DNA from: an uncultured Vicinamibacterales bacterium
GTDB lineage: Bacteria; Acidobacteriota; Vicinamibacteria; Vicinamibacterales; UBA8438
Direction of reading: 5' to 3'
Assembly: GCA_958295905.1 (NCBI GenBank)
Contig: OY282382.1
Coordinates: 3,186,001 to 3,250,000 of the forward strand
DNA: 64,000 nt
Each line of letters opens with the position of its first letter. Position 1 is the first letter of the stretch. The position numbers and the translations under genes are program-made. Positions 288 to 62,313 of the stretch are shown piece by piece. The notes beneath the pieces were generated by a model. The model had not been told where the DNA came from. It saw only the letters and a program-made list of their open reading frames with translations, and made no database searches.

Positions 288-460
288 CAGGAGCATCCCA
301 CGCTGACGGCGCGTGACGGCCCGCCCCCGATTCGAGGGGTCGCCACCGTCTTGCCGACCGGCCGGCGCTGCGTGAGACCCACGATTCCGCCCGTCCGGAG
401 CCCCAGGACCCGCCACGATTCCGCCTGCGCACGGCGGTGGCGGAGCGTGGGACGGCCCTG
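288..460 (-). mobile_element. MITE-like element, copy A
   Basis: About 173 bp bounded by inverted ends that read CAGGAGCATCCCACGCT on the left and the complement of CAGGGCCGTCCCACGCT on the right. A perfect 10-bp direct repeat GTTTCCGCAA flanks it at 278-287 and 461-470, as expected of a target-site duplication. Six further copies occur in the window. It carries no gene. The DNA to its left (1-277) shows no gene or repeat that I recognise; the reading frames there look like chance GC-rich frames. Confidence 0.8.
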
Positions 461-6505: not shown

Positions 6506-6672
6506 GCCCGCCCATCGTCGCCTGACGGCTCCGCTTGGCGCCCAACCAACCCTCCAGGAGTCCGCGCGGTTCTACGGCGCAGACTCCCGGCCCGCCCATC
6601 GTCGCCTGACGGCTCCGCTTGGCGCCCAACCAACCCGCAGGAGTCCGCGCGGTTCTACGGCGCAGACTCCTG
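6506..6672 (-). repeat. Two tandem 84-bp hairpin repeats
   Basis: Two near-identical units, about 6506-6588 and 6589-6672. Each has a CGTCGCCTGACGGCT segment, a GCGCCCAACCAACC segment and a hairpin whose arms are CAGGAGTC and GACTCCTG around GCGC/GCGC and a 9-nt loop. The same unit recurs at 7166, 32562, 33288, 40271, 45755, 50478 and 56688. Confidence 0.8.
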
Positions 6673-7165: not shown

Positions 7166-7333
7166 GCCCGCCAACCGTCGCCTGACGGCTGCGCTTGGCG
7201 CCCAACCAACCCTCCAGGAGTCCGCGCGGTTCTACGGCGCATACTCCTGGCTCGCCAATCGTCGCCTGACGGCTGCGCTTGGCGCCAACCAACCCTCCAG
7301 GAGTCCGCGCGGTTCTACGGCGCAGACTCCTGG
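7166..7333 (-). repeat. Two tandem hairpin repeats that overlap a gene end
   Basis: Units at about 7166-7249 and 7250-7333, the same family as at 6506. The right unit overlaps the last 19 bp of the ExbB-like gene: its hairpin strand CAGGAGTCTGCGCCGTAG is read in frame as Q-E-S-A-P-stop. Confidence 0.8.
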
Positions 7334-8657: not shown

Positions 8658-8669
8658 GGCTCCCCCGCG

Positions 8670-11600
8670 TCAGGTCGTGCTCCGCCGCCAGCGCAGGACG
8701 AGCAGCGCGAGCACGAAGAGGCTCGTCGCGAGGGCCGCCCCCAGCCACGCCAGGCGCGCCGGCATCGGCGGGGCCGCCGCCGCGTCCGCCGGCCGCGGCT
8801 CCGCGTCCTGCTCGGCCAGGACCACGCTCGCCTCCGTCAGCTCCACGCTCGTCGTCAGGGCCTGCTGCAGCTCGCGCCGGTAGCTCGCCGCGAGGTCCGC
8901 CGGCGCCTGCTCGGCGATGAACGACGCCAGGGCCGCATTGTCGCAGACGAAGCCGCTGCAGCCCGCCTCGAACTCCTCCACCAGCCGGGTGTGCAGCTCC
9001 GCGAGCACCGCCACCTGCTGCGCCGTGGCGTCCCACAGGCCCTTGCGCACCGTCTCCAGCATCACCGCCGTCATCTCCTGCAGGGCATAGGGGTTCTCCC
9101 GCCGGAAGAAGTCCTCGACCCCGAGATCGTGGCGGTCGTCGACGTACACCTCGTACAGCTCGTTCCAGAGCGTGTCGTCGATGGCGGCCGGCTTCATCAC
9201 GTTCCACCCGTAGGTGTTGCGGAACGTCTCGGCGAAGTGCTCGGCCGACGAGGCCCCGCCCTCCTGCATCTCGCCGATGTAGGCGGGGTTCAGCAGCGTC
9301 GACCGCGCCTCGGTCCAGATCGTCTCCTCGAGGTCCGTCACCCGCGGCCGGTTCATGTTGCGGAAGTCGTTGAAGTAGGCGTCGGCGTCGCGTCCCGTGA
9401 CGTGGCGGACGGCCGCGCTCAGCCCGCCCATGAACTCGTAGACGTGGTCGAGGCTCAGCGCGCCCCAGGTGTGGCTCTGGAGCGGCTGCACGACGACCTC
9501 GGTGCCGGCGAGGGCCGCCTCGAAGACGCCCTCGGCGTAGAAGCTCCAGAGCTCGCCCTCGTCGTAGACGGCGCCCATGTTGCGCAGGTACTGGCCGGCG
9601 ACCTCGGCGTCCTCTTCCCAGCGGTCGCCGCGCTCGACCATCTCCATGATGGCGGTGCCGTAGTTGCCGTTCACGCCGCCGAAGACGCGCAGGGTCGAGT
9701 AGCGCCGCGCGTCGGCGGGGGAGAGGCCCCTGGCCATCATCACCTCCTCGGCGCGCACGCGCCCCTCCTGGACGAAGTTGGCGTGGGCCTCGGCGTCGCG
9801 CGCCTCGGCCGCCATGGCGACGGCGCGGTTGATGAGGGCGAGGCGCGAGGCGGCGAGGTCGCGGAGCTGGCCGGCGGTCTGGACGACGACATCGATGCGG
9901 GGCCGGCCGAGGTCGGCCGACGGCATCAGGCGCAGGTCGCCGACCCGCCCGCGCGGGTCCCAGACCGGCTCGACCCCGAGCAGGTAGAAGATCTGGCCGA
10001 TGGTGGCGCCCTCGGTGCCGATGAAGTCGGTCGGCCAGAGGGTGAAAGCGACCTTCCGGGGCCAGGCGTCGTGGCGCCGCCGGTGCTCGTCCAGGAGAGA
10101 CTCGGCCAGCCTGCGCCCCACCGTCCACGCCTCCCGGGACGGCGTTTGCTCGGCGTCGATCGAGAAGAGGTTGCGCCCGGTGGGGACGGCGTCGGGATTG
10201 ACGATGGGGTCGCCCCCGGGCGTGGGCTCGACATAGCCGCCGGCGAGGCCCCGCACCACGCTTTCAAGCTCGATCTCCGAGCTGTCGCGCAGGCCCTTCC
10301 GGTGCCGGTCTACGCCGGCGACGCCGGCCTTCAGCACGAGAAGCGGCGCCGCGAGCTTCGATTCCCCGTGAGCCTGCTCGAGGTCGGCCGGGGAGACGAG
10401 GTCGGACAGCACTGCCTCGACGCTCTCTCCGCCCGCCCGCCGCGCGTAGGTGCGCCGCGCGGGCTGCCGGTAGCGACGCTCGAAGAGCGCGGCGTCGTCG
10501 AGGACGTCGCTCTTCACCACCCCCTTGGCGATGTCGATGCCGGCGAGGCCGTAGGCGATCGGGTCGATCGCCATCAGCTCCGCCGTCCCGTGGATCTCCC
10601 CGTCGGAGAACGCCTTGCCCAGCGTGTAGAAGCCCTGCACGACCTTCGCCCCGTCGATCGTCTCGACGTGGTTGCTCAGGCGGAAGAAGTCGTCGTCCGA
10701 CCATGCCGCCTCGGGGTCGAGGCCGAGGTCCACGTGCAGGCCCATGTCCACGGCGAGGCGCCGTATGGTCCTGGCGTGCTCCGCCCTCACCGGGCCGTCG
10801 GCCGCGTTGCGGTAGCGGTCGAGCCGGTCGCGCAGCGGGCGCAGCCCCTCGTAGAGGCCGCCCTCCATGAAGGGCGGCGTGAGGTGGGTGACGGTGGCCG
10901 CGTAGGCGCGCCGCTTGGCGATGATGCCCTCGCCGACGTTGCTCATGATGTAGAGGTAGACGTGCGGGATCCCGCCGATGAGCGCGTCCGACCAGTCGAA
11001 CGACGAGAGCGCAATCTGCTTCCAGGGCCTGAACTCGAGGCTCCCGTGGGTGCCGAAGTGCATCACGGCGTCGGCCTCGAACGCGCGCCGGGTCCACAGG
11101 TACGACGCCACGTAGGGGTGCGGCGGCGCCTCCAGCGTCCCGTGCACGAGGCGGAACGTATCGTCGCCCACCCCCGGCAGCGGCTGCGGGAGGACGACCA
11201 CGTTGCCGAACTGGACGCGGGCGACCGCGATGGCGGCGTCGTCGCCGCCGCCGACCGTCATGTACTCCCCGGGGGCGGGCCCGTACGCCGCGGCCACCGC
11301 CTCCCGCATCGCCGGCTCGAGGTGCTCTTCGGTCCATTCCGCGTACCGGGCGGCGGGCACCAGGGCCGGGTCCCCCTCGGCCACGTACTCCTCGAACGCC
11401 CCGCGCGCGTACGGCCCGAGCACGGGCCCCCTCGCCTGGATGAGCTCCCAGAACTCGTCCTCGGTCTCGGGCAGGCCCTCGACCGTGTAGCCGGCGTCGC
11501 GCATGGTGCGCAACAGGTTCAAAAGGCTCGGCACCACCTCCATGTTGCTCGCGGTCATCGCGTTCTTGCCGGGGCCCTTGTAGTAGTAGATGGCCACCCG

Positions 11601-18349: not shown

Positions 18350-19442
18350 GCGGCCGGGCCGCGCCGAGGTCCGGCACGCCCCGGTCAGGTCGTTCTCCGC
18401 CTCCGCAGGACGAACAGCGCGAGCACGAACAGGCCCGCGACCACGATCGCGCCCAGCCGCGCGAGGCGCAACGGGGTCGGCCGGTTCGCCGCCGCGTCCG
18501 CCGGTTGCGTCTCCGCCTCCTGCTCGGCCAGGACCACGCTCGCCTCCGTCAGCTCCACGCTCGTCGTCAGGTTGCGTTGCAGCTCGCTGCGATAGGCGGC
18601 CGCGAGGTCCGCCGGGGCCTGCTCGGCGATGAACGACGCCAGGGCCGCGTTGTCGCAGACGAACCCGCTGCAGCCCGCTTCGAACTCCTCCACCAGCCGG
18701 GTGTGCAGCTCCGCGAGCACCGCCACCTGTCGCGCCGTGGCGTCCCAGAGGCCCTTGCGCACCGTCTCCAGCATCACCGCCGTCATCTCCTGGAGCGCAT
18801 ACGGGTTCTCCCGCCGGAAGAAGTCGTGGACCCCGAGGTCGTGGCGGTCGTCGACGTACACCTCGTACAGCTCGTTCCAGAGCGTGTCGTCGACGGCGGC
18901 CGGCTTCATCACGTTCCAGCCGTAGGTGTTGCGGAACGTCTCGGCGAAGTGCTCGGCCGACGAGGCCCCGCCCGCCTGCATCTCGCCGATGTAGGCGGGG
19001 TTCAGCAGCGTCGACCGCGCCTCGGTCCAGACCGTCTCGGTGAGGTCCGTCACCCGCGGCCGCTGGGCGTTGCGGAAGTCGTTGAAGTAGGCGTCGGCGT
19101 CGCGTCCCGTGACGTGGCGGACGGCCATGCTCAACCCGCCCATGAACTCGTAGACGTGGTCGAGGCTGAGGGCGCCCCAGGTGTGACTCTCCCGCGGCTG
19201 CACGACGATCTCGGTGCCGGCGAGCGCCGCCTCGAAGATGCCGTCGGCGTAGAAGCTCCAGAGCTCGCCCTCGTCGTAGACGGCGCCCATGTTGCGCAGG
19301 TACTGGTCCGCGACCTCGGCGTCCTCCTCCCAGCGGTCGCCGCGCTCGACCATCTCCATGATGGCGGTGCCGTAGTTGCCGTTCACGCCGCCGAAGACGC
19401 GCAGGGTCGAGTAGCGCCGCGCGTCGGCGGGGGAGAGGCCCC

Positions 19443-20836: not shown

Positions 20837-23800
20837 GGGGAGAGGCCCCTGGCCATCATCACCTCCTCGGCGCGCAGCCGGCCCTCCTGGACGAAGTTGG
20901 CGTGGGCCTCGGCGTCGCGCGCCTCGGCCGCCATGGCGACGGCGCGGTTGATGAGGGCGAGGCGCGAGGCGGCGAGGTCGCGGAGCTGGCCGGCGGTCTG
21001 GACGACGACATCGATGCGGGGCCGGCCGAGGTCGGCCGTCGGCATCAGCCGCAGGTCGGCGACCCGGCCGAACGGGTCCCAGACCGGTTCGACCCCGAGC
21101 AGGTAGAAGATCTGGCCGATGGTGGCGCCCTCGGTGCCGATGAAGTCGCTGGGCCAGAGGGTGAACGCGACCTTCCGGGGCCAGGCGTCGTGGCGCCGCC
21201 GGTGCTCGTCGAGGAGCGCTTCCGCCAGACCGCGCCCCACCGTCCACGCCTCCGGCGACGGTGTCTTCTCGGCGTCGATCGAGAAGAGGTTGCGCCCGGT
21301 GGGAACGGCGTCGGGGTTGACGATGGGGTCGCCCCCGGGCGTGGGCTCGACGTAGCCGCCGGCGAGGCCCCGCGCCACGCTCTCGAGCTCGAGGTCGGAG
21401 CTGTCGCGCAGGCCCTTCCGGTGCCGGTCGATGCCGCTCACGCTCGTCTCCAGCGTCAGGACCGCCCGGGCCAGCTCCGCGTCGCGGGCCGCGCGCGCCT
21501 CCAGCTCGACGCCGGCGGCGTCGACGGCGGCGGCGAGGCGCGGGTCGAACGCCGGGTGGTCCAGGATCTTCCGCAGGCGGTCCGCGGCCGGCGCGTCGAC
21601 GTCGTGAAGCTGGTCCCGGAGCGTCGTGCGGTGTTCCCGGTAGAAGGCCACCGCCGAGAGCGCCCCCTCGATGTCCTCGCTGGCGGCGGTCAACAGCTCG
21701 TCCGCCGACTCGTGTCCCCACGCCCGCCCGAGGGCCTCGACCTGCGGCGCGTCGAGGGCGAAGGCCAGCCGCTCCGACGCCAGCCGACGCTTCTCGTCCT
21801 CGACGCGGTCGACGAGCCCGGGATCCTCCAGCAGCGCGAACGTCCGCTCGCGGAGGGCGGCGTCCTGCATCGCCTCGAGCAGGGCGAACACGTCCGGGTC
21901 CTCGGCGATCTCCACCGCCTCGGCCATCGGCGGGATGACGGCGGCGATGGTCTTGGCGCGCTCGCGCTGCACCGGATCGAGCAGTTGCGACGTGCGCGCG
22001 AACTCCTGCTCCGACTGCAGCCGCTCGACGAACTCCACCTTTCGCGGGTGCGGCAGGATGCGCGCCACCAAGTCCTCCAGCTCGCCCGCGCGGGCTTCCG
22101 GCACGGCGGCGTCCGGCCGGCTCCGCGTGCCCGCCCCCATCGAGATGAAGCCCCGGATGATGTCGTCGTCCGACGGCCGCCGCGACGCCTCGCGCCAGGC
22201 GTGGGCGTGCTGCAGGTCTGCGTCCGTCACCAGGTCGGAGAGCACCGCCCCGGCGTTCGCGCCCGCGACCCGCCGCGCGTAGGCGTCGCGCGCGCGCCGG
22301 CGGTAGCGGCGCTCGAAGTACACCTCGTCCTCGAGATCCGCGGCCTCGACCGCGCCCTTGACGGTGTCGATGCGGGCGAGGGCGTAGGCGATGGGATCGA
22401 TGGCCATCAGCTCCGCCGTCGAGTCGACCTCGGCCGCCGTGAAGGCGTTCCCGAGGGTGTAGAGCCCCTGCGTGACCTTCTCCCCGTCGATGGTCTCGAC
22501 GTGGTTGCTCAGGCGGAACATCTCGTCCGCCGACCACGCGGCGTCGGGGTCGAGGCCGAGGTCCACGTGCAGGTTCATCTCTGTCGCGAGACGCCGGATC
22601 GTGCGCGCATGCTCGGCCCGCACCGGACCGTCGGCCGCGTTGCGGAAGCTGTCGAGCCGGTCGCGCAGCGGGCGCAGCCCGTCGTACAGCCCGCCCTCCA
22701 TGAACGGCGGCGTCAGGTGGGTCACCGTCGCCGCGTAGGAGCGGCGCTTGGCGATGATGCCCTCGCCGACGTTGCTCATGACGTAGACGTAGACGTGCGG
22801 GAGCCCCCCGACGAGCGCGTCCGCCCAGTCGAAGGCCGACAGGGCAATCTGCTTCCACGGCGTGAACTCCAGGCTGCCGTGGGTGCCGAAGTGCATCACG
22901 GCGTCGGCCTGGAATGCGTTCCGGGTCCACAGGTACGAGGCGACATAGGGGTGCGGCGGCGCCTTGCGCGTGCCGTGCACGAGCCGGAACGTGTCGTCGC
23001 CGGCGCCCGGCAGGGGCTGCGGCAGGATGACGACGTTGCCGAACTGCACGCGGGCGACGGCCAGCGCGGTCTCGTCGCCCTCGCCGACCGTCATGTACTC
23101 GCCGGGGGCGGGGCCGTACTGCTCGACGACGGCGTCGCGCATGCCCGGTTCGAGATCCGCTTCCACCCACGCCGCGTACTCGCCGGCCGGCACCAGCGCC
23201 GGATCGCCGGTGGCCACGTACTCCTCGAACGCGCCGCGCGCATAGGGCCCGAGCACCGGCCCCTTCGCCTGGACCAGTTCCCAGAACTCGTCGTCGGTCT
23301 CGGGCAGCCCCTCGACCGCGTAGCCGGCGTCCCGCAGCGAGCGCAGCAGGTTCAGCAGGCTCGGCGCCACCTCCAGGCTGCCCGCGTTCATGGCGTTCTT
23401 GCCCGGTCCCTTGTAGTAGTAGATGGCCACCCGCTTGTCGCGATTGGGCTTGGCCTTCAAGGTCAGCCAGCCCTCGACGAGGTCGCAGAAGGTGTCGAGG
23501 CGCCCGGGCAACGCGTCGAAGATCTCGTAGCCGTCGGCGTCGGTGAACTGCGCGGCCACCGCGTAGGGCGCCACCCCGCCGTCGAGCTCGGGCAGGACGA
23601 CGCTCATCGTGAGCATGGACCCGGCCATGCCCTGCTGGTCGGTCACCCAGTCGTCGTGGTTCTGGAACACCGACACCGGCGTTAGCATCGGGATGTCGCG
23701 CTCGCGCAGCCAGGCGATGGCGTCGTCGGCGCGCCCCAGGGTGAGCCGCCCGTGCGGCATCAGCACCACGAGGTCGGGGTCGATGCGCTTGAGGAAGTCG

Positions 23801-32562: not shown

Positions 32563-32722
32563 GAGTCTGCGCAGCGCCGCGGACTCCTGTAGGGTTGCTT
32601 GGGTGCCAAGCAGGCCGAAGACGACGATTGGCGGGACAGGAGTCTGCGGCGTGGAGCGGCGCAGACTCCTGGAGGGTCGGTCGGGCGCCCACGGAGCCGA
32701 ACGCGACGATTGGCGGGCTGGA
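32562..32722 (+). repeat. Two hairpin repeats in inverted orientation
   Basis: Units at about 32562-32637 and 32638-32722, in the opposite orientation to those at 6506. Each has AGGAGTCTGCG ... GACTCCTG and GACGATTGGCGGG. They lie between the TonB stub and the PepSY stub. Confidence 0.75.
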
Positions 32723-38948: not shown

Positions 38949-39120
38949 CAGGACCATCCCACGCTCCGCCACCGCCGTGCGCAGGCCGAATCGTGGCGGG
39001 TCCTGGGGCTCCGGACGTGCGGAATCGTGGGTTCCCGCGGCGCCGGCCGGTCGGCAAGACGGTGGCGACCCCTCGAATCGGGGGCGGGCCGTTACGCGCC
39101 GTCAGCGTGGGATGCTCCTC
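38949..39120 (+). mobile_element. MITE-like element, copy B
   Basis: A 172-bp copy with inverted ends CAGGACCATCCCACGCT and, inverted, AGGAGCATCCCACGCT, flanked by a perfect 9-bp direct repeat GCCCGCCGC (38940-38948 and 39121-39129). This is the cleanest copy for defining the ends. Confidence 0.85.
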
Positions 39121-40270: not shown

Positions 40271-40488
40271 GCCCGGAAATCGTCGCCTGGCGGCTCCGAT
40301 TGCCGCCCGACCAACCGTCCCGGGGTCCGCGCCGTTCTACGGTGCAGACGCTTGGCCCGGAAATCGTCGCCTGGCGGCTCCGATTGCCGCCCGACCAACC
40401 GTCCCGGGGTCCGCGCCGTTCTACGGCGCAGACGCTTGGCCCGGAAATCGTCGCCCGACGGTGCCGATCGCCGCCCGCCCGACCGTTC
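40271..40488 (+). repeat. Tandem hairpin repeats, 84-bp period
   Basis: Two near-identical units (40271-40354 and 40355-40438) and a third, diverged one (from 40439) with the shared GCCCGGAAATCGTCGCC start and the GTTCTACGG(T/C)GCAGACGCTTGG end. They fill the gap between the genes at 39218 and 40585. Confidence 0.85.
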
Positions 40489-40529
40489 CCCGGCGTCGGC
40501 GCCTCCCGCGGGGAGGCGCCGACGCCGGG
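40489..40529 (+). promoter_or_regulatory. Perfect 19-bp hairpin upstream of a hydrolase gene
   Basis: Arms 40489-40507 (CCCGGCGTCGGCGCCTCCC) and 40511-40529 are exact reverse complements around a 3-nt loop GCG. It ends 55 bp before the ATG at 40585. It could block transcription from upstream or shape the leader of the hydrolase mRNA. There is no T-tract. Confidence 0.55.
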
Positions 40530-42375: not shown

Positions 42376-42489
42376 GGCTGCTCGGTTCGGCGGTGCCGCG
42401 CCGCCCGCGCGGCCGGCGCCGGGGCGGTTTCGGCGGCTTTCTCCGAAGGCTGCTCGGTTCGGCGGCGCCGCGCCGCCCGCGCGGCCTGC
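42376..42489 (+). repeat. 42-bp direct repeat
   Basis: GGCTGCTCGGTTCGGCGG starts two 42-bp units at 42376-42417 and 42448-42489, 72 bp apart, that differ at two positions. The second runs into the SGNH relic, so the duplication lies at its 5' end. Confidence 0.75.
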
Positions 42490-45592: not shown

Positions 45593-45738
45593 CAAGACCA
45601 TCCCACGCTCCGCCACCGCCGTGCAACAGGCGGAATCGTGGCGGGTCCTGGGGCTCCGGACGGGCGGAATCGTGGGTCTCACGCGGCGCCGGCCGGTCGG
45701 CAAGACGGTGGCGACCCCTCGAATCGGGGGCGGGCCGT
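45593..45738 (+). mobile_element. MITE-like element, copy C, right end missing
   Basis: The left end AAGACCATCCCACGCT and the body match the family, but the last 30 or so bp with the right inverted end are absent. Even so, the remaining copy is flanked by a 9-bp direct repeat TGTGGGGGC (45584-45592 and 45739-45747). Apart from this element and the hairpin repeat after it, the interval 45086-45876 has no gene that I can support. Confidence 0.65.
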
Positions 45739-45754
45739 TGTGGGGGCTGATTTC

Positions 45755-45857
45755 CTGCGGCGCAGACTCCCGGCCCGGAAATCGTCGCCTGCGGCTCCGA
45801 TGGCCGCCCAACCAACCCTCCGGGAATCCGCGCTGTCTACGGCGCAGACTCCTGGAC
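45755..45857 (+). repeat. Hairpin repeat, one partial and one full unit
   Basis: CTGCGGCGCAGACTCCCGG (45755 on) is the end of one unit, and CCCGGAAATCGTCGCCTGCGG ... GGCGCAGACTCCTGG (about 45772-45857) is a complete unit. They end 20 bp before the methyltransferase start. Confidence 0.75.
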
Positions 45858-47150: not shown

Positions 47151-47569
47151 TGGCCGTCACGTCATAAATTTAGGACGGACAGACTTGGGTCGAACGACGT
47201 ATTTCTTCTGCATAGGACTCTTGCGGTTCGCGGTGAGTGCCCCGTCGACCCCATTTTTAATCATGCCAATGCACTGGTGGGGTGGGGTCCCTGCAATAGC
47301 AACACCATCAGGTGCTGCCGTGGGCCGATTCGAACGCGCCATCGCGGTCCGGACTAGCGGCTGTATTCTGTATCGAACTTGAGGGACACCACCGGCAGCC
47401 CGTGGTGGAACCCCGCGTTGCGCCGAGCGCGCCGGCGCGGCGTTCGACGCCCGCCCGACGAGGCGTGAGAGGAGGGCGCTCCCGCTCCGCTTGCCGCCCG
47501 ACCAACCCCTGCCGGGATCCCGCGCAGCTTCCGCCGCGCCGGGTCCCGGGTTCCCTGAAGAGAGGCTCC
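47151..47569. other. Gene-free interval with an AT-richer block and repeat debris
   Basis: 47157-47395 is visibly less GC-rich than its surroundings (for example CATAAATTTAGGAC, CCATTTTTAATCATG). It holds a 61-codon frame on the - strand without recognisable features. 47396-47569 contains debris of the AACCCCGCGTTGCG dispersed family and a worn hairpin repeat (CCGCTCCGCTTGCCGCCCG, about 47495-47545). I see no inverted ends or promoter. Confidence 0.5.
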
Positions 47570-51762: not shown

Positions 51763-51933
51763 CAGGACCACCCCACGCTCCACCACCGCCGTGCGCAGGC
51801 CGAATCGTGGCGGGTCCTGGGGCTCCGGACGGGCGGCGTCGTGGGTCTCACGCGGTGCCGGCGGCGGCAAGACGGTGGCGACCCCTCGAATCGGGAGCAA
51901 GTCGTCACGCGCAGTCAGCGTGGGATGGCCCTG
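51763..51933 (+). mobile_element. MITE-like element, copy D (tandem with E)
   Basis: A copy with ends CAGGACCACCCCACGCT and, inverted, CAGGGCCATCCCACGCT. Flanks are CCCGGTGAG on the left and CCCGGTGCG on the right, a 9-bp duplication with one mismatch. The right flank is also the left flank of copy E. Confidence 0.8.
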
Positions 51934-51942
51934 CCCGGTGCG

Positions 51943-52113
51943 CAGGACCATCCCATGCTCCACCACCGCCGTGCGCAGGCCGAATCGTGGCGGGTCCTGG
52001 GGCTCCGACGGGCGGCGTCGTGGGTCTCACGCGGTGCCGGCGGGTCGGCAAGACGGTGGCGACCCCTCGAATCGGGAGCAAGTCGTCACGCGCAGTCAGC
52101 GTGGGATGCTCCT
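51943..52113 (+). mobile_element. MITE-like element, copy E (tandem with D)
   Basis: The second of two direct copies, almost identical to copy D (shared GGGAGCAAGTCGTCACGCGCAGTCAGCG-type right half). The left flank CCCGGTGCG is shared with D; the right flank CCCGGGTTA has only partial similarity. The pair probably arose by duplication of one inserted copy. Confidence 0.8.
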
Positions 52114-52125
52114 GCCCGGGTTAAG

Positions 52126-53820: not shown

Positions 53821-53917
53821 TTTGTTGGTTAGGGAATGTCGTTGGGGATGTAGAGCAAGGCGTGATCGGCCGATGCTATCAGTATGGAGGCTGTTTTGAG
53901 CCTGGAGGAGCCCGATC

Positions 53918-55653
53918 ATGTCCGATGCGCAGATTGCCGCCCTGGAGCGGCGCCACGCCCACCTTCGGAGTCAGTTGGCCGCGGTCGGCGAAATGCGTTC
54001 GGGGACGCTGACGGAGCGGTGCCGCCGCTGCGGCAGGGCATCCTGTGGTTGCGCCGACCGGGGCGCCTCGGGACGCGGCCCGGTCCTGTCGCTGACGCGC
54101 AAGCAGGACGGCAAGACGGTGACGCGGCTGATTCCGGCGGAAGCGGGCGCGGAAGTCCAGGCGCAGAACGCGGAGTACCGGCGCTTCCGGGAGTTGTCGA
54201 AAGCGTTGATCGAGGTCAGCGATGCGCTGAGTGAAGCCCGGCTGGCGGCCGGGCGCCCGCGCCCCGCCGCTCCGCCGCCGCCCCCCGCCGCGGCGGAAAA
54301 AAAGGGGGCCCGGCGGAAGCGTTCGCGGCCGGGATCAACCTCAAGATTGCAACCGGGATCGCCGAACTCGTCGGACCGGGGGCGTCCGGGCAGGACTTCG
54401 AGGCCTTCGAACAAGCCGTCCGCCGCGGGGTGCTCGACGCCGCCGCGGGGGAGGTAGAGCACCAACTGAACGCGGACGTCACCGACTCCTGCGGCCCGAC
54501 GGTGGTGTGCGCCTGCGGACAGACGGCGCGCTACGCCGGCCGCCGCCCGAAAACGTTCGGCACCGTACTGGGGCCGGTGACGCTGGAACGCGCCTACTAC
54601 TACTGCGCCGCCTGCCGCGCGGGCGTGTGCCCGCGGGACCAAGCGTTGGGCCTGCACGGCACCGCGCTGTCCCCCGCCCTCACGCGGATGGTGGGACTGG
54701 TGGCGGCGGATGGGAGCTTCGCCGACGCGAGCGGGTTGTTGAGCGATTTGACCGGGATGCGCATCGGGGCCAAGCAGGTCGAGCGTACCGCCGAAGCGCT
54801 GGGATGCGCGGTCGCGGCCGACGAACGCGGGGTGGTCGAACCCGCCCCCGCCGCGGCGCCGACGATGTACCTCGGGTTGGACGGCACCGGGGTGCCGGTG
54901 CGCAAGTCCGAGACGGCCGGGCGGCGCGGCAAGCAGCCCGACGGTTCGGCCAAGACCCGCGAGGTCAAGCTGGTCACGGTGTGGACGGCGGAAACGCGCG
55001 ACGGGAACGGCCTGCCCGTCCGGGACCGCGGTTCGGTCAGCTACAGCGCTGCGGTCGAGAGCGCGGCCGGCCGCGACGCCGACCCGCAGCCGTCCCCGTT
55101 CGCGCAACGGGCGTACCGCGAAGCACGGCGGCGCGGCTTCGACACCGCGTCGCGCCGCGTCGTCATCGGCGACGGGGCCGAGTGGATCTGGAATCTGTCC
55201 GTCGAACAGTTCCCCGGCGCCATCGAAATCGTCGACCTCTACCACGCCAAGGGGCATCTGTGCGACGTGGCCAAGGCCGTCTACGGCGCCGGCACGGACC
55301 TCGCCGCCCGGTGGGGCAAGGACCGGCGGGACGAGTTGGACGCGGGGCGGATCGGGGCGGTCCTGACCGCCCTGCGCCCCCACCGCCAGACCTGCGATGA
55401 AGCCCGCAAGTGTATCGACTACCTGACCCGCAACCGCCACCGGATGCGCTATGCGGAGTTCCGCGCGTGGGGTCTTTGCGTGTCGTCGGGCGTCGTCGAG
55501 GCCGGATGCAAGCACGCCATCGGCGCCCGGCTCAAGCGTGCCGGCATGCACTGGACGGTGGCCGGCGCCAACGCCATCATCGCCCTGCGGTGCTGCAAGC
55601 TCAGCGGCCGCTTCGAGGATTTCTGGGAACGACGAGCCGCAAAGGCCGCTTGA
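53918..55653 (+). CDS. ISKra4-family transposase, made by -1 frameshifting
   Basis: The first frame starts at 53918 (MSDAQIAALERRHAHLRSQL, then CRRCGRASCGC) and the second continues to 55653. The frames meet at A_AAA_AAG (54298-54304), a slippery heptamer that lets the ribosome move back one base from EKKG to GGPAEAFAAGINLK. The large part carries ARYAGRRPKTFGTVLGPVTL, YYCAACRAGVCPRDQALGL, LGLDGTGVPVRKSE (first Asp), VVIGDGAEWIWNL (second Asp) and SGVVEAGCKHAIGARLKRAG (Glu), a full DDE set. The second frame alone could start at 54430 but lacks the N-terminus. It looks complete and able to act. Confidence 0.88.
54298..54304 (+). other. Slippery site for -1 ribosomal frameshifting
   Basis: A_AAA_AAG in the frame of the upstream open frame (codons GAA AAA AAG). 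A -1 shift here enters the frame of the main transposase part. This is the classical signal used by many insertion sequences. Confidence 0.75.
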
Positions 55654-55815
55654 GGGGCATCTCACAAATCTGACGTGCACCCGATCGGCGCGCGGTGGTT
55701 GCGCCCGGTCCGTACCGTGGGCGATCATGCTGGTGCGCCGCGGGTCTTCCGGACGGCGGGGCCTGCCTTCGGGGCGGGCGGCGGACGGGGCGCTTCGCGG
55801 AGGAGGGTTCGCGCA

Positions 55816-56399: not shown

Positions 56400-56573
56400 C
56401 AAGACCATCCCGCGCTCCGCCACCGCCGTGGGCAGGCGGAATCGTGGCGGGTCCTGGGGCTCCGGATGTGCGGAATCGTGGGTCCCGCGCGGCGCCGGCC
56501 GGTCGGCAAGACGGTGGCGACCCCTCGAATCGGGGGCGAGCCGTCACGCGCAGTCAGCGTGGGATGCCCCTGC
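56400..56573 (+). mobile_element. MITE-like element, copy F
   Basis: Ends CAAGACCATCCCGCGCT and, inverted, CAGGGGCATCCCACGCT, flanked by TTGCCGCCC on both sides (56391-56399 and 56575-56583), with two extra bases between the right end and the right repeat. Confidence 0.78.
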
Positions 56574-61923: not shown

Positions 61924-62047
61924 GTCCCATCGTAACCGGAAGCGTGCGCAGCGGCGTCCCCGCCGCCGCCCGCCGGCCGGAACGGGCGGCGCCTCGAGCG
62001 GATTCCTGCGGCGATCTCCCGGCCAAGTCACCACGTCACCCCGCCGC

Positions 62048-62292
62048 AGGACCATCCCACGCTCCGCCACCGCCGTGCGCAGGCGGCATCGTGGCGGGTC
62101 CTGAGGCTCCGACCGTGCGGAAATCGTGGGTCTCACGCGGCGCCGGGCGGTCGGCAAGACGGTGGCGACCCGCGCCCGGGGCGCGGACGCTGCCGTCGCG
62201 GGTGAGCGCACGCGGTGCCGGCCGGTCGGCAAGACGGTGGCGACCCCTCGAACCGGGGGCGGGCCGTCACGCGCCGTCAGCGTGGGATGCCC
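62048..62292 (+). mobile_element. MITE-like element, copy G, internally expanded
   Basis: Ends CAGGACCATCCCACGCT and, inverted, CAGGGGCATCCCACGCT. Flanked by CCCCGCCG on both sides. It is about 75 bp longer than the other copies because the segment CCGG(G/C)CGGTCGGCAAGACG and its surroundings are present twice (about 62140-62170 and 62215-62246). Confidence 0.75.
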
Positions 62293-62313
62293 CTGCCCCC
62301 GCCGGCGGGGTGG

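Follow-up and report, generated by a model that had tools for sequence, protein, structure and literature searches.

An abundant MITE family, probably orphaned and of ISAs1 type, and 36-bp duplications likely left by spacer integration in a Vicinamibacterales genome

Bacterial MITEs typically reach 10–20 copies per genome (PMC4596501), and in Anabaena sp. 90 132 of 147 MITEs are intergenic (PMC3542288). For the ISAs1 family of insertion sequences (IS), inverted repeats of 14–22 bp that start with CAGGG and a 10-bp repeat observed on insertion have been described (PMC11946415). Work on CRISPR adaptation describes spacer integration outside arrays as a result of Cas1-Cas2 overexpression (PMC11788318), a higher efficiency of off-array integration near IHF-like motifs (PMC9456107) and, for DNA that lacks a CRISPR locus, an in vitro preference of Cas1-Cas2 for cruciform-capable inverted repeats (Nunez et al. 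2015, cited in PMC9180970). The off-target integration of spacers has thus far been documented in overexpression and in vitro experiments. Non-canonical spacer integration outside CRISPR arrays was reportedly described by Nivala, Shipman and Church in 2018. Single-spacer 'arrays' are usually discarded by CRISPR finders. The literature surveyed names no ISAs1-derived MITE and reports no natural genome with many off-array spacer integrations. The MITE family described in this work is very probably of the ISAs1 type and is probably orphaned; several of its copies appear to have been hit by an integrase with a 36-bp duplication, most likely Cas1-Cas2.

The window, i.e. the whole 64-kb stretch of DNA analysed, contains seven MITE copies with inverted ends CAGG...CCTG and a typical length of about 173 bp. 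All seven had been listed in the original prediction, the last one with a start at 62048 instead of 62047. The copy at 288–460 (minus strand, 173 bp) is flanked by the target duplication GTTTCCGCAA at 278–287 and 461–470, and the copy at 38949–39120 (plus strand, as are those that follow; 172 bp) by GCCCGCCGC on either side. The copies at 51763–51933 and 51943–52114 are the first and second half of a head-to-tail dimer with the target duplication CCCGGTG(A/C)G, one copy of which separates the halves. In the copy at 56400–56572 (173 bp) the flanking repeat CTTGCCGCCC lies one base off the right end. The copy at 62047–62295 extends over 249 bp and carries an internal duplication with an insert. 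The copy at 45593–45739 is right-truncated (MITE positions 1–145 only) and flanked by TGTGGGGGC; it lacks the right inverted end, yet has a perfect 9-bp repeat on both sides, so that it represents either a one-ended insertion or a deletion that stopped exactly at the target repeat. It is the one copy that does not end at the inverted repeats, an observation which the original prediction had named as speaking against it. The predicted flanking direct repeats of 8–10 bp were found again at the copies (GTTTCCGCAA, GCCCGCCGC, TGTGGGGGC, CCCGGTG(A/C)G, (C)TTGCCGCCC and CCCCGCCG). With up to three mismatches, the window contains 13 ends compared to 0.57 expected from shuffled sequence, and none of 100 shuffles reached 13.

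Other repeats are present in the window. A second intergenic family with a period of 82–84 bp occupies 6506–6672, 7166–7332, 32573–32717, 40271–40521, 45792–45836 and 47482–47526. As its GGCGCAGACTCC motif is similar to the terminal sequence (AGGAGTCTGCGCCGCAG) of a 1.6-kb multicopy IS of the same genome, it may be another MITE family. Positions 53821–55682 hold a multicopy, IS-like repeat of 1.86 kb whose ends are unlike those of the MITE. Finally, large stretches are duplicated (8663–9730 and 18379–19442; 9718–10317 and 20837–21436), possibly reflecting duplicated large genes.

Copy number was determined in the genome (6,297,210 bp; 6.30 Mb) and in a systematic sample of 2,054,000 bp made up of 99 20-kb stretches at intervals of about 60 kb, the non-overlapping half of one more, and the window. 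One stretch (L123) that shares 10 kb with the window was cut for copy counts and the direct-repeat scan and retained in the end-pair counts. A genome search for the 17-bp ends (CAGGRSCATCCCACGCT), proposed earlier as a check, gave 356 exact matches, and the reversed-pattern control gave none. The sample contained 92 full copies and 32 further matches (124 full or partial), which extrapolates to about 282 full copies and about 380 in all. Hundreds of genomic copies had been predicted on the basis of one copy per about 9 kb; the hundreds are borne out, but the genome average is one full copy per 22 kb, the density in the window being above that average. Among the 91 end pairs in the sample, 83 were spaced 161–177 bp apart (mode 173); other spacings were 72 bp (one pair), 245–249 bp (four) and 326 bp (one), and two pairs separated by 6.3 and 11.4 kb are probably neighbouring partial copies. 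A perfect target duplication was present in 63 of 114 full copies, with a length of 9 bp (29 copies), 10 bp (27) or 8 bp (7), far above the frequency in shuffled flanks (220 of 22,800 pairs; 1%), which upholds the claim that the element is mobile; its non-autonomous nature is likewise borne out. Full copies diverged from the consensus by 4.5% on average (range 1.2–9.4%). The family thus shows terminal inverted repeats, target duplications, short length (mode 173 bp), lack of a transposase gene and high copy number, as MITEs do; ends common to an autonomous element were found in a genome of the same family, not in its own.

Insertion sites were scored for ORF overlap after deletion of the element and one copy of the target duplication. 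None of 112 sites lay inside a coding ORF as compared to 868 of 1500 random positions. Divergent gaps made up 37 of the 77 MITE-bearing gaps compared to 25% of intergenic bases (p 1.5e-5), and the distance to predicted gene starts was shorter for copies than for random points in intergenic DNA (p 0.0014). Because genes were predicted by a simple home-made caller based on codon usage, the contrast in ORF avoidance is firm and that in divergent gaps tentative. Orientation relative to neighbouring codirectional genes was equal (18 and 18). As RNA, one copy has a good predicted fold (z -3.0). Compensatory changes were at the level of shuffled controls (double-change cells: 3 versus 2.1 on the top strand, 2 versus 1.9 on the bottom strand), and no Rfam family was found in the window; an RNA function of the MITE was rejected as covariation was absent.

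Fourteen head-to-tail pairs of full copies were listed, and nearly all of them have as spacer one unit of the target repeat that flanks the pair. Three of the 14 represent one dimer copied within a 5-kb repeat, which leaves 12 independent dimers. The halves were more alike than 95% of random pairs in 12 of the 14 listed and 10 of the 12 independent dimers; pairs 1656149 and 2658850 showed no such likeness. An origin by independent insertions was rejected, the halves being too alike in the 10 independent dimers, and the simplest account is that dimers would mostly arise by local duplication through the target repeats. A repeat of 5.15 kb with a MITE dimer beside an IS occurs at L091:10100-15250 and L127:4497-9647 (99.98% identity over 5,151 bp), and its dimer is found again, together with the flanks, at L028, L030 and L170/L172.

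Among 100 genomes searched, its own included, the MITE had full-length matches in its own genome alone; ten of the 100 gave short matches only, of at most about 60 bp. Exact ends were found in two of 162 genomes of the order, i.e. its own and G012, the metagenome-assembled genome Acidobacteria bacterium CO36386bin_12 of the same family. The two genomes of the same genus, whose best syntenic matches are 83–91% identical, had no exact ends, and at two mismatches about as many as the control. Absence of the MITE from these two genomes implies that its spread is recent and most likely postdates the split. Empty sites in relatives had been suggested as a further check. Neither relative has the window dimer at the corresponding site, but the missing stretch is longer than the dimer, and at 45593 and 56400 the MITE is absent within diverged intergenic DNA. 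A clean empty site with a single copy of the target repeat was not obtained among the window sites compared, because intergenic DNA is too diverged. Plasmids gave no match to the MITE. Exact-end matches in viral contigs (six stretches) were taken as chance, there being no paired ends within three mismatches; the one viral stretch whose ORFs were inspected (L200) carries phage-like genes and no recognisable transposase.

As predicted, the driver of the MITE lies elsewhere. No element of 0.5–5 kb with MITE ends was found in the 2.05 Mb sampled from its own genome, and no ISAs1 transposase was detected there with model NF033564; a single 27-residue relic of ISAs1 type is located at C1:4722710, with no MITE ends nearby. 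An apparent 1.75-kb element with MITE ends (L055) turned out to be an unrelated IS inserted into a MITE. The larger element with the same ends and a transposase that had been proposed as a search target is thus lacking in the sampled part of its own genome, but a driver-like multicopy element with these ends exists in G012. In G012, four contigs break off about 50 nt into one end (CAGGGCCATCCCACGCT), and the other end (CAGGACTATCCCACGCT) is present on five, a pattern typical of repeats that an assembly fails to span. In three of the four left-end contigs, left- and right-end contigs can be paired via 9, 10 and 9 shared bp at the junction, while random 9-mers from G012 flanks agreed 4 times in 200,000. 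One right-end contig extends 420 nt inwards and encodes a 70-residue protein tail on the opposite strand. This tail matches three Streptomyces proteins annotated as ISAs1 family transposase (tblastn, E about 6e-6); its match to NF033564 is weak (E 0.013; 14.7 bits, under the cut-off of 70), the query being a contig-broken fragment. The assignment of the G012 element to an ISAs1-type family therefore rests on 70 residues of a transposase broken by contig ends. Its ends fit the ISAs1 rule (14–22 bp, CAGGG start), with CAGGACTATCCCACGCT deviating at the fifth base. Target repeats of ISAs1 elements range from 8 to 10 bp. Past the 17-bp ends, no obvious likeness between the MITE body and the G012 element was seen by eye (about 50 nt per end). 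ISAs1 hits in four of the 162 genomes of the order were discarded as the parent because MITE ends are absent from them; one full ISAs1 element (L234) has CAGGGCGACCGCATGTA ends.

We infer that an ISAs1-type transposase acted on the MITE and that the parent was lost. A transposase from an ISAs1-family IS with the same ends would cut and join the MITE ends, and the MITE would have reached its roughly 280 full copies after the species split from its sequenced genus-mates. The parent would have disappeared from the sequenced genome or never have been part of it, with the fragment of an ISAs1-type transposase gene remaining; the MITE family is probably orphaned now. Alternatively, a DDE transposase of another family, still encoded in the same genome by an element with diverged ends, might drive the MITE. 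Room for such a driver exists among the 68 DDE_Tnp_1 hits of the genome, of which 30 were inspected for ends. It is nevertheless improbable, as none of these 30 was bounded by MITE ends, the lone apparent case being the IS inside a MITE mentioned above, and as the ends of the multicopy repeats listed from the sample are different, whereas the G012 element agrees with the MITE in both ends and length of target duplication. More improbable still is the view that the family is a regulatory or structural repeat (RNA element, terminator or REP-like palindrome) that spread by other means and was kept for a function in promoter regions. The location of all 112 testable copies outside coding ORFs, their excess in divergent gaps and near gene starts, and the single well-folding copy would suit this view; the target duplications, compensatory changes at shuffle level on both strands, lack of an Rfam family in the window and balanced codirectional orientation argue against it. 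The statement that the flanking repeats prove mobility rather than a regulatory repeat was too strong as an either/or, since effects of copies on genes are possible, although mobility itself is demonstrated. An ISAs1-type transposase hence is the preferred driver.

The 249-bp copy at 62047 had been listed correctly as a family member, but its duplication of about 36 bp with an unrelated insert had been overlooked. Here, 36–38 bp of the MITE body are duplicated (62134–62171 and 62209–62246, plus strand; the 36-bp core corresponds to MITE positions 87–122) around a unique, spacer-like insert of 37 bp (62172–62208). Including this one, nine MITE copies were found in which a stretch of about 36 bp is duplicated around a differing insert of 34–39 bp. 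The duplicated stretch covers MITE positions 87–122 in five copies (window 62134, L101, L135, L150 and, to within two bases, L189), positions 136–171 in three (L075, L089 and L105), and positions 148–173 plus flank in one (L195). L189 and L195 are loci fetched for their ends and are outside the sample counts. The nine inserts differ by eye, and those derived from the sample are mutually dissimilar by BLAST.

Similar events occur outside MITEs. In the window, a 39-bp stretch (42376–42414) is repeated at 42448–42486 with a 33-bp insert in between, a second spacer-like event. A scan of 2.054 Mb for solitary pairs of direct repeats, whatever their sequence, from which clustered (354 of 483 in all) and low-complexity pairs had been dropped, returned 125 pairs. 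Periods of 69–78 accounted for 74 of them compared to about 9.5 expected (two flanking ranges of 19 periods each gave 18), i.e. an excess of about 65 sites in 2.05 Mb, most of them intergenic. Seventy-one of the 74 pairs lie outside predicted genes, and the remaining three have a period divisible by three. The class with a duplication of 34–41 bp and an insert of 30–44 bp comprises 42 pairs, or about 129 per genome by extrapolation. For periods of 69–78, duplications of 36 to 42 bp were observed 16, 9, 4, 4, 1, 0 and 1 times; a fixed length of 36 bp plus chance extension predicts 17.6, 10.2, 4.5, 1.7, 0.6, 0.2 and 0.1, and the observed lengths fit such a ruler. High-GC Streptomyces plasmids used as control (four 50-kb stretches, 200 kb) had one solitary pair and none in the class. 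Two pairs in the class were found in 236 kb of G001 and G002, and genus-mates may thus show such duplications at a lower rate. MITEs received 7 of the 42 events while making up 3.5% of intergenic sequence (p 0.0006; p 0.015 for all 74).

The GC content of the inserts is genome-like (0.707 versus 0.702). At L128:17908-18060, an ectopic site outside arrays, three copies of a 36–37 bp sequence enclose two different inserts as if the site had been used twice, possibly forming a new mini-CRISPR. Inverted repeats were not enriched at non-MITE sites (mean longest stem 4.4 versus 4.7 in flanking windows), and the duplicated ends of these sites did not resemble array repeats, so that neither shared inverted repeats nor array-like ends serve as a signature of these sites; GTC/GTT near an end (13 of 32 versus 20% inside) was a weak signal. 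One insert searched against phages, and a 24-nt piece of another against viral contigs, gave no source, and no PAM was found for the two inserts tried. Self origin was discarded as a general source: the one real dispersed match in its own genome concerned the insert in the L105 MITE, and an insert match between L115 and L161 reflects a paralogous locus.

The genome has three cas1 loci. From C1:5,238,006 onwards lies a CRISPR array with 27 or more 36-bp repeats and with spacers of 34–41 bp, and its periods do not differ from those of the 74 sites (p 0.56). About 10 kb from this array, a Cas4g/Cas1g fusion is encoded (C1:5,250,080; 815 bits versus a cut-off of 560), adjoined by Cas2. A second cas1-cas4 locus (C1:3997636) has a type I-G-like neighbour and, beside it, at least 12 repeats of another 36-bp sequence. 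The third (C1:4983744) has repeats of 28–30 bp and does not fit. A type I-B-like system was rejected as the insert source, as its period is 64–70 and its repeats measure 28–30 bp, not 36. A target of repeat length, matching a 36-bp ruler, is duplicated around array-like inserts of spacer length, and adaptation genes are present (the three cas1 loci, among them the Cas4g/Cas1g fusion with Cas2). The best candidate for the integrase is the type I-G Cas4/Cas1-Cas2 machinery with 36-bp repeats.

In several MITE copies, an integrase, most likely Cas1-Cas2, would have added an insert of about 36 bp and duplicated 36 bp around it. Judged from the sequences, CRISPR adaptation has likely placed spacers at considerably more than a hundred non-CRISPR positions in the bacterium's own chromosome, with MITEs as preferred and recurrent landing sites. 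The sites would be single-spacer pseudo-arrays, MITE positions 87–122 having been used five times and 136–171 three times with different spacers. The competing explanation dispenses with a CRISPR integrase and invokes DNA slippage, template switching or a small, hitherto undescribed element whose target duplication measures 36 bp. It gains from the failure to find a PAM or phage source for the inserts (two inserts tried) and from non-MITE sites whose duplicated ends are unlike array repeats and which show no inverted-repeat enrichment, but it sits poorly with the fixed 36-bp ruler, with mutually unrelated inserts, with periods distributed as in the CRISPR array of this genome (p 0.56) and with one MITE site used five times with five inserts. 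The genome-like GC content of the inserts and the dispersed match of one of them in its own genome also speak against the CRISPR reading. We regard it as rather unlikely and favour spacer integration by Cas1-Cas2.

If spacer integration is correct, the repeated MITE provides a replicated natural assay of off-target integrase specificity, and specificity, insert origin and fitness cost would be readable from sequence. Further, new CRISPR loci could arise where a mobile element brings such sites along, and single-spacer 'arrays' can be real integration events.

On its own, the MITE is an unusually abundant new MITE of a known class, with a likely parent that can be named though it is missing from the sequenced genome. 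Inverted ends of CAGG type and the length of the target repeat are as in ISAs1 elements (PMC11946415). Like the MITEs of Anabaena sp. 90, it is short, non-coding, present in many copies and mostly intergenic (PMC3542288). In contrast to typical bacterial MITEs with 10–20 copies per genome (PMC4596501), about 280 full copies are present here and the parent is absent from the sequenced genome. As to integration, the in vitro preference for inverted repeats (Nunez et al. 2015, cited in PMC9180970) is paralleled by the inverted MITE ends and by one hot spot at the right end of the MITE; it differs in that non-MITE sites show no inverted-repeat excess and the main MITE hot spot (87–122) is internal. 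The putative events would share their nature with those studied by Nivala et al. (2018), spacer integration off arrays in both cases. Here, more than a hundred such events would have accumulated naturally in one genome, a transposable element would have been hit repeatedly, and the host has a type I-G Cas4/Cas1.
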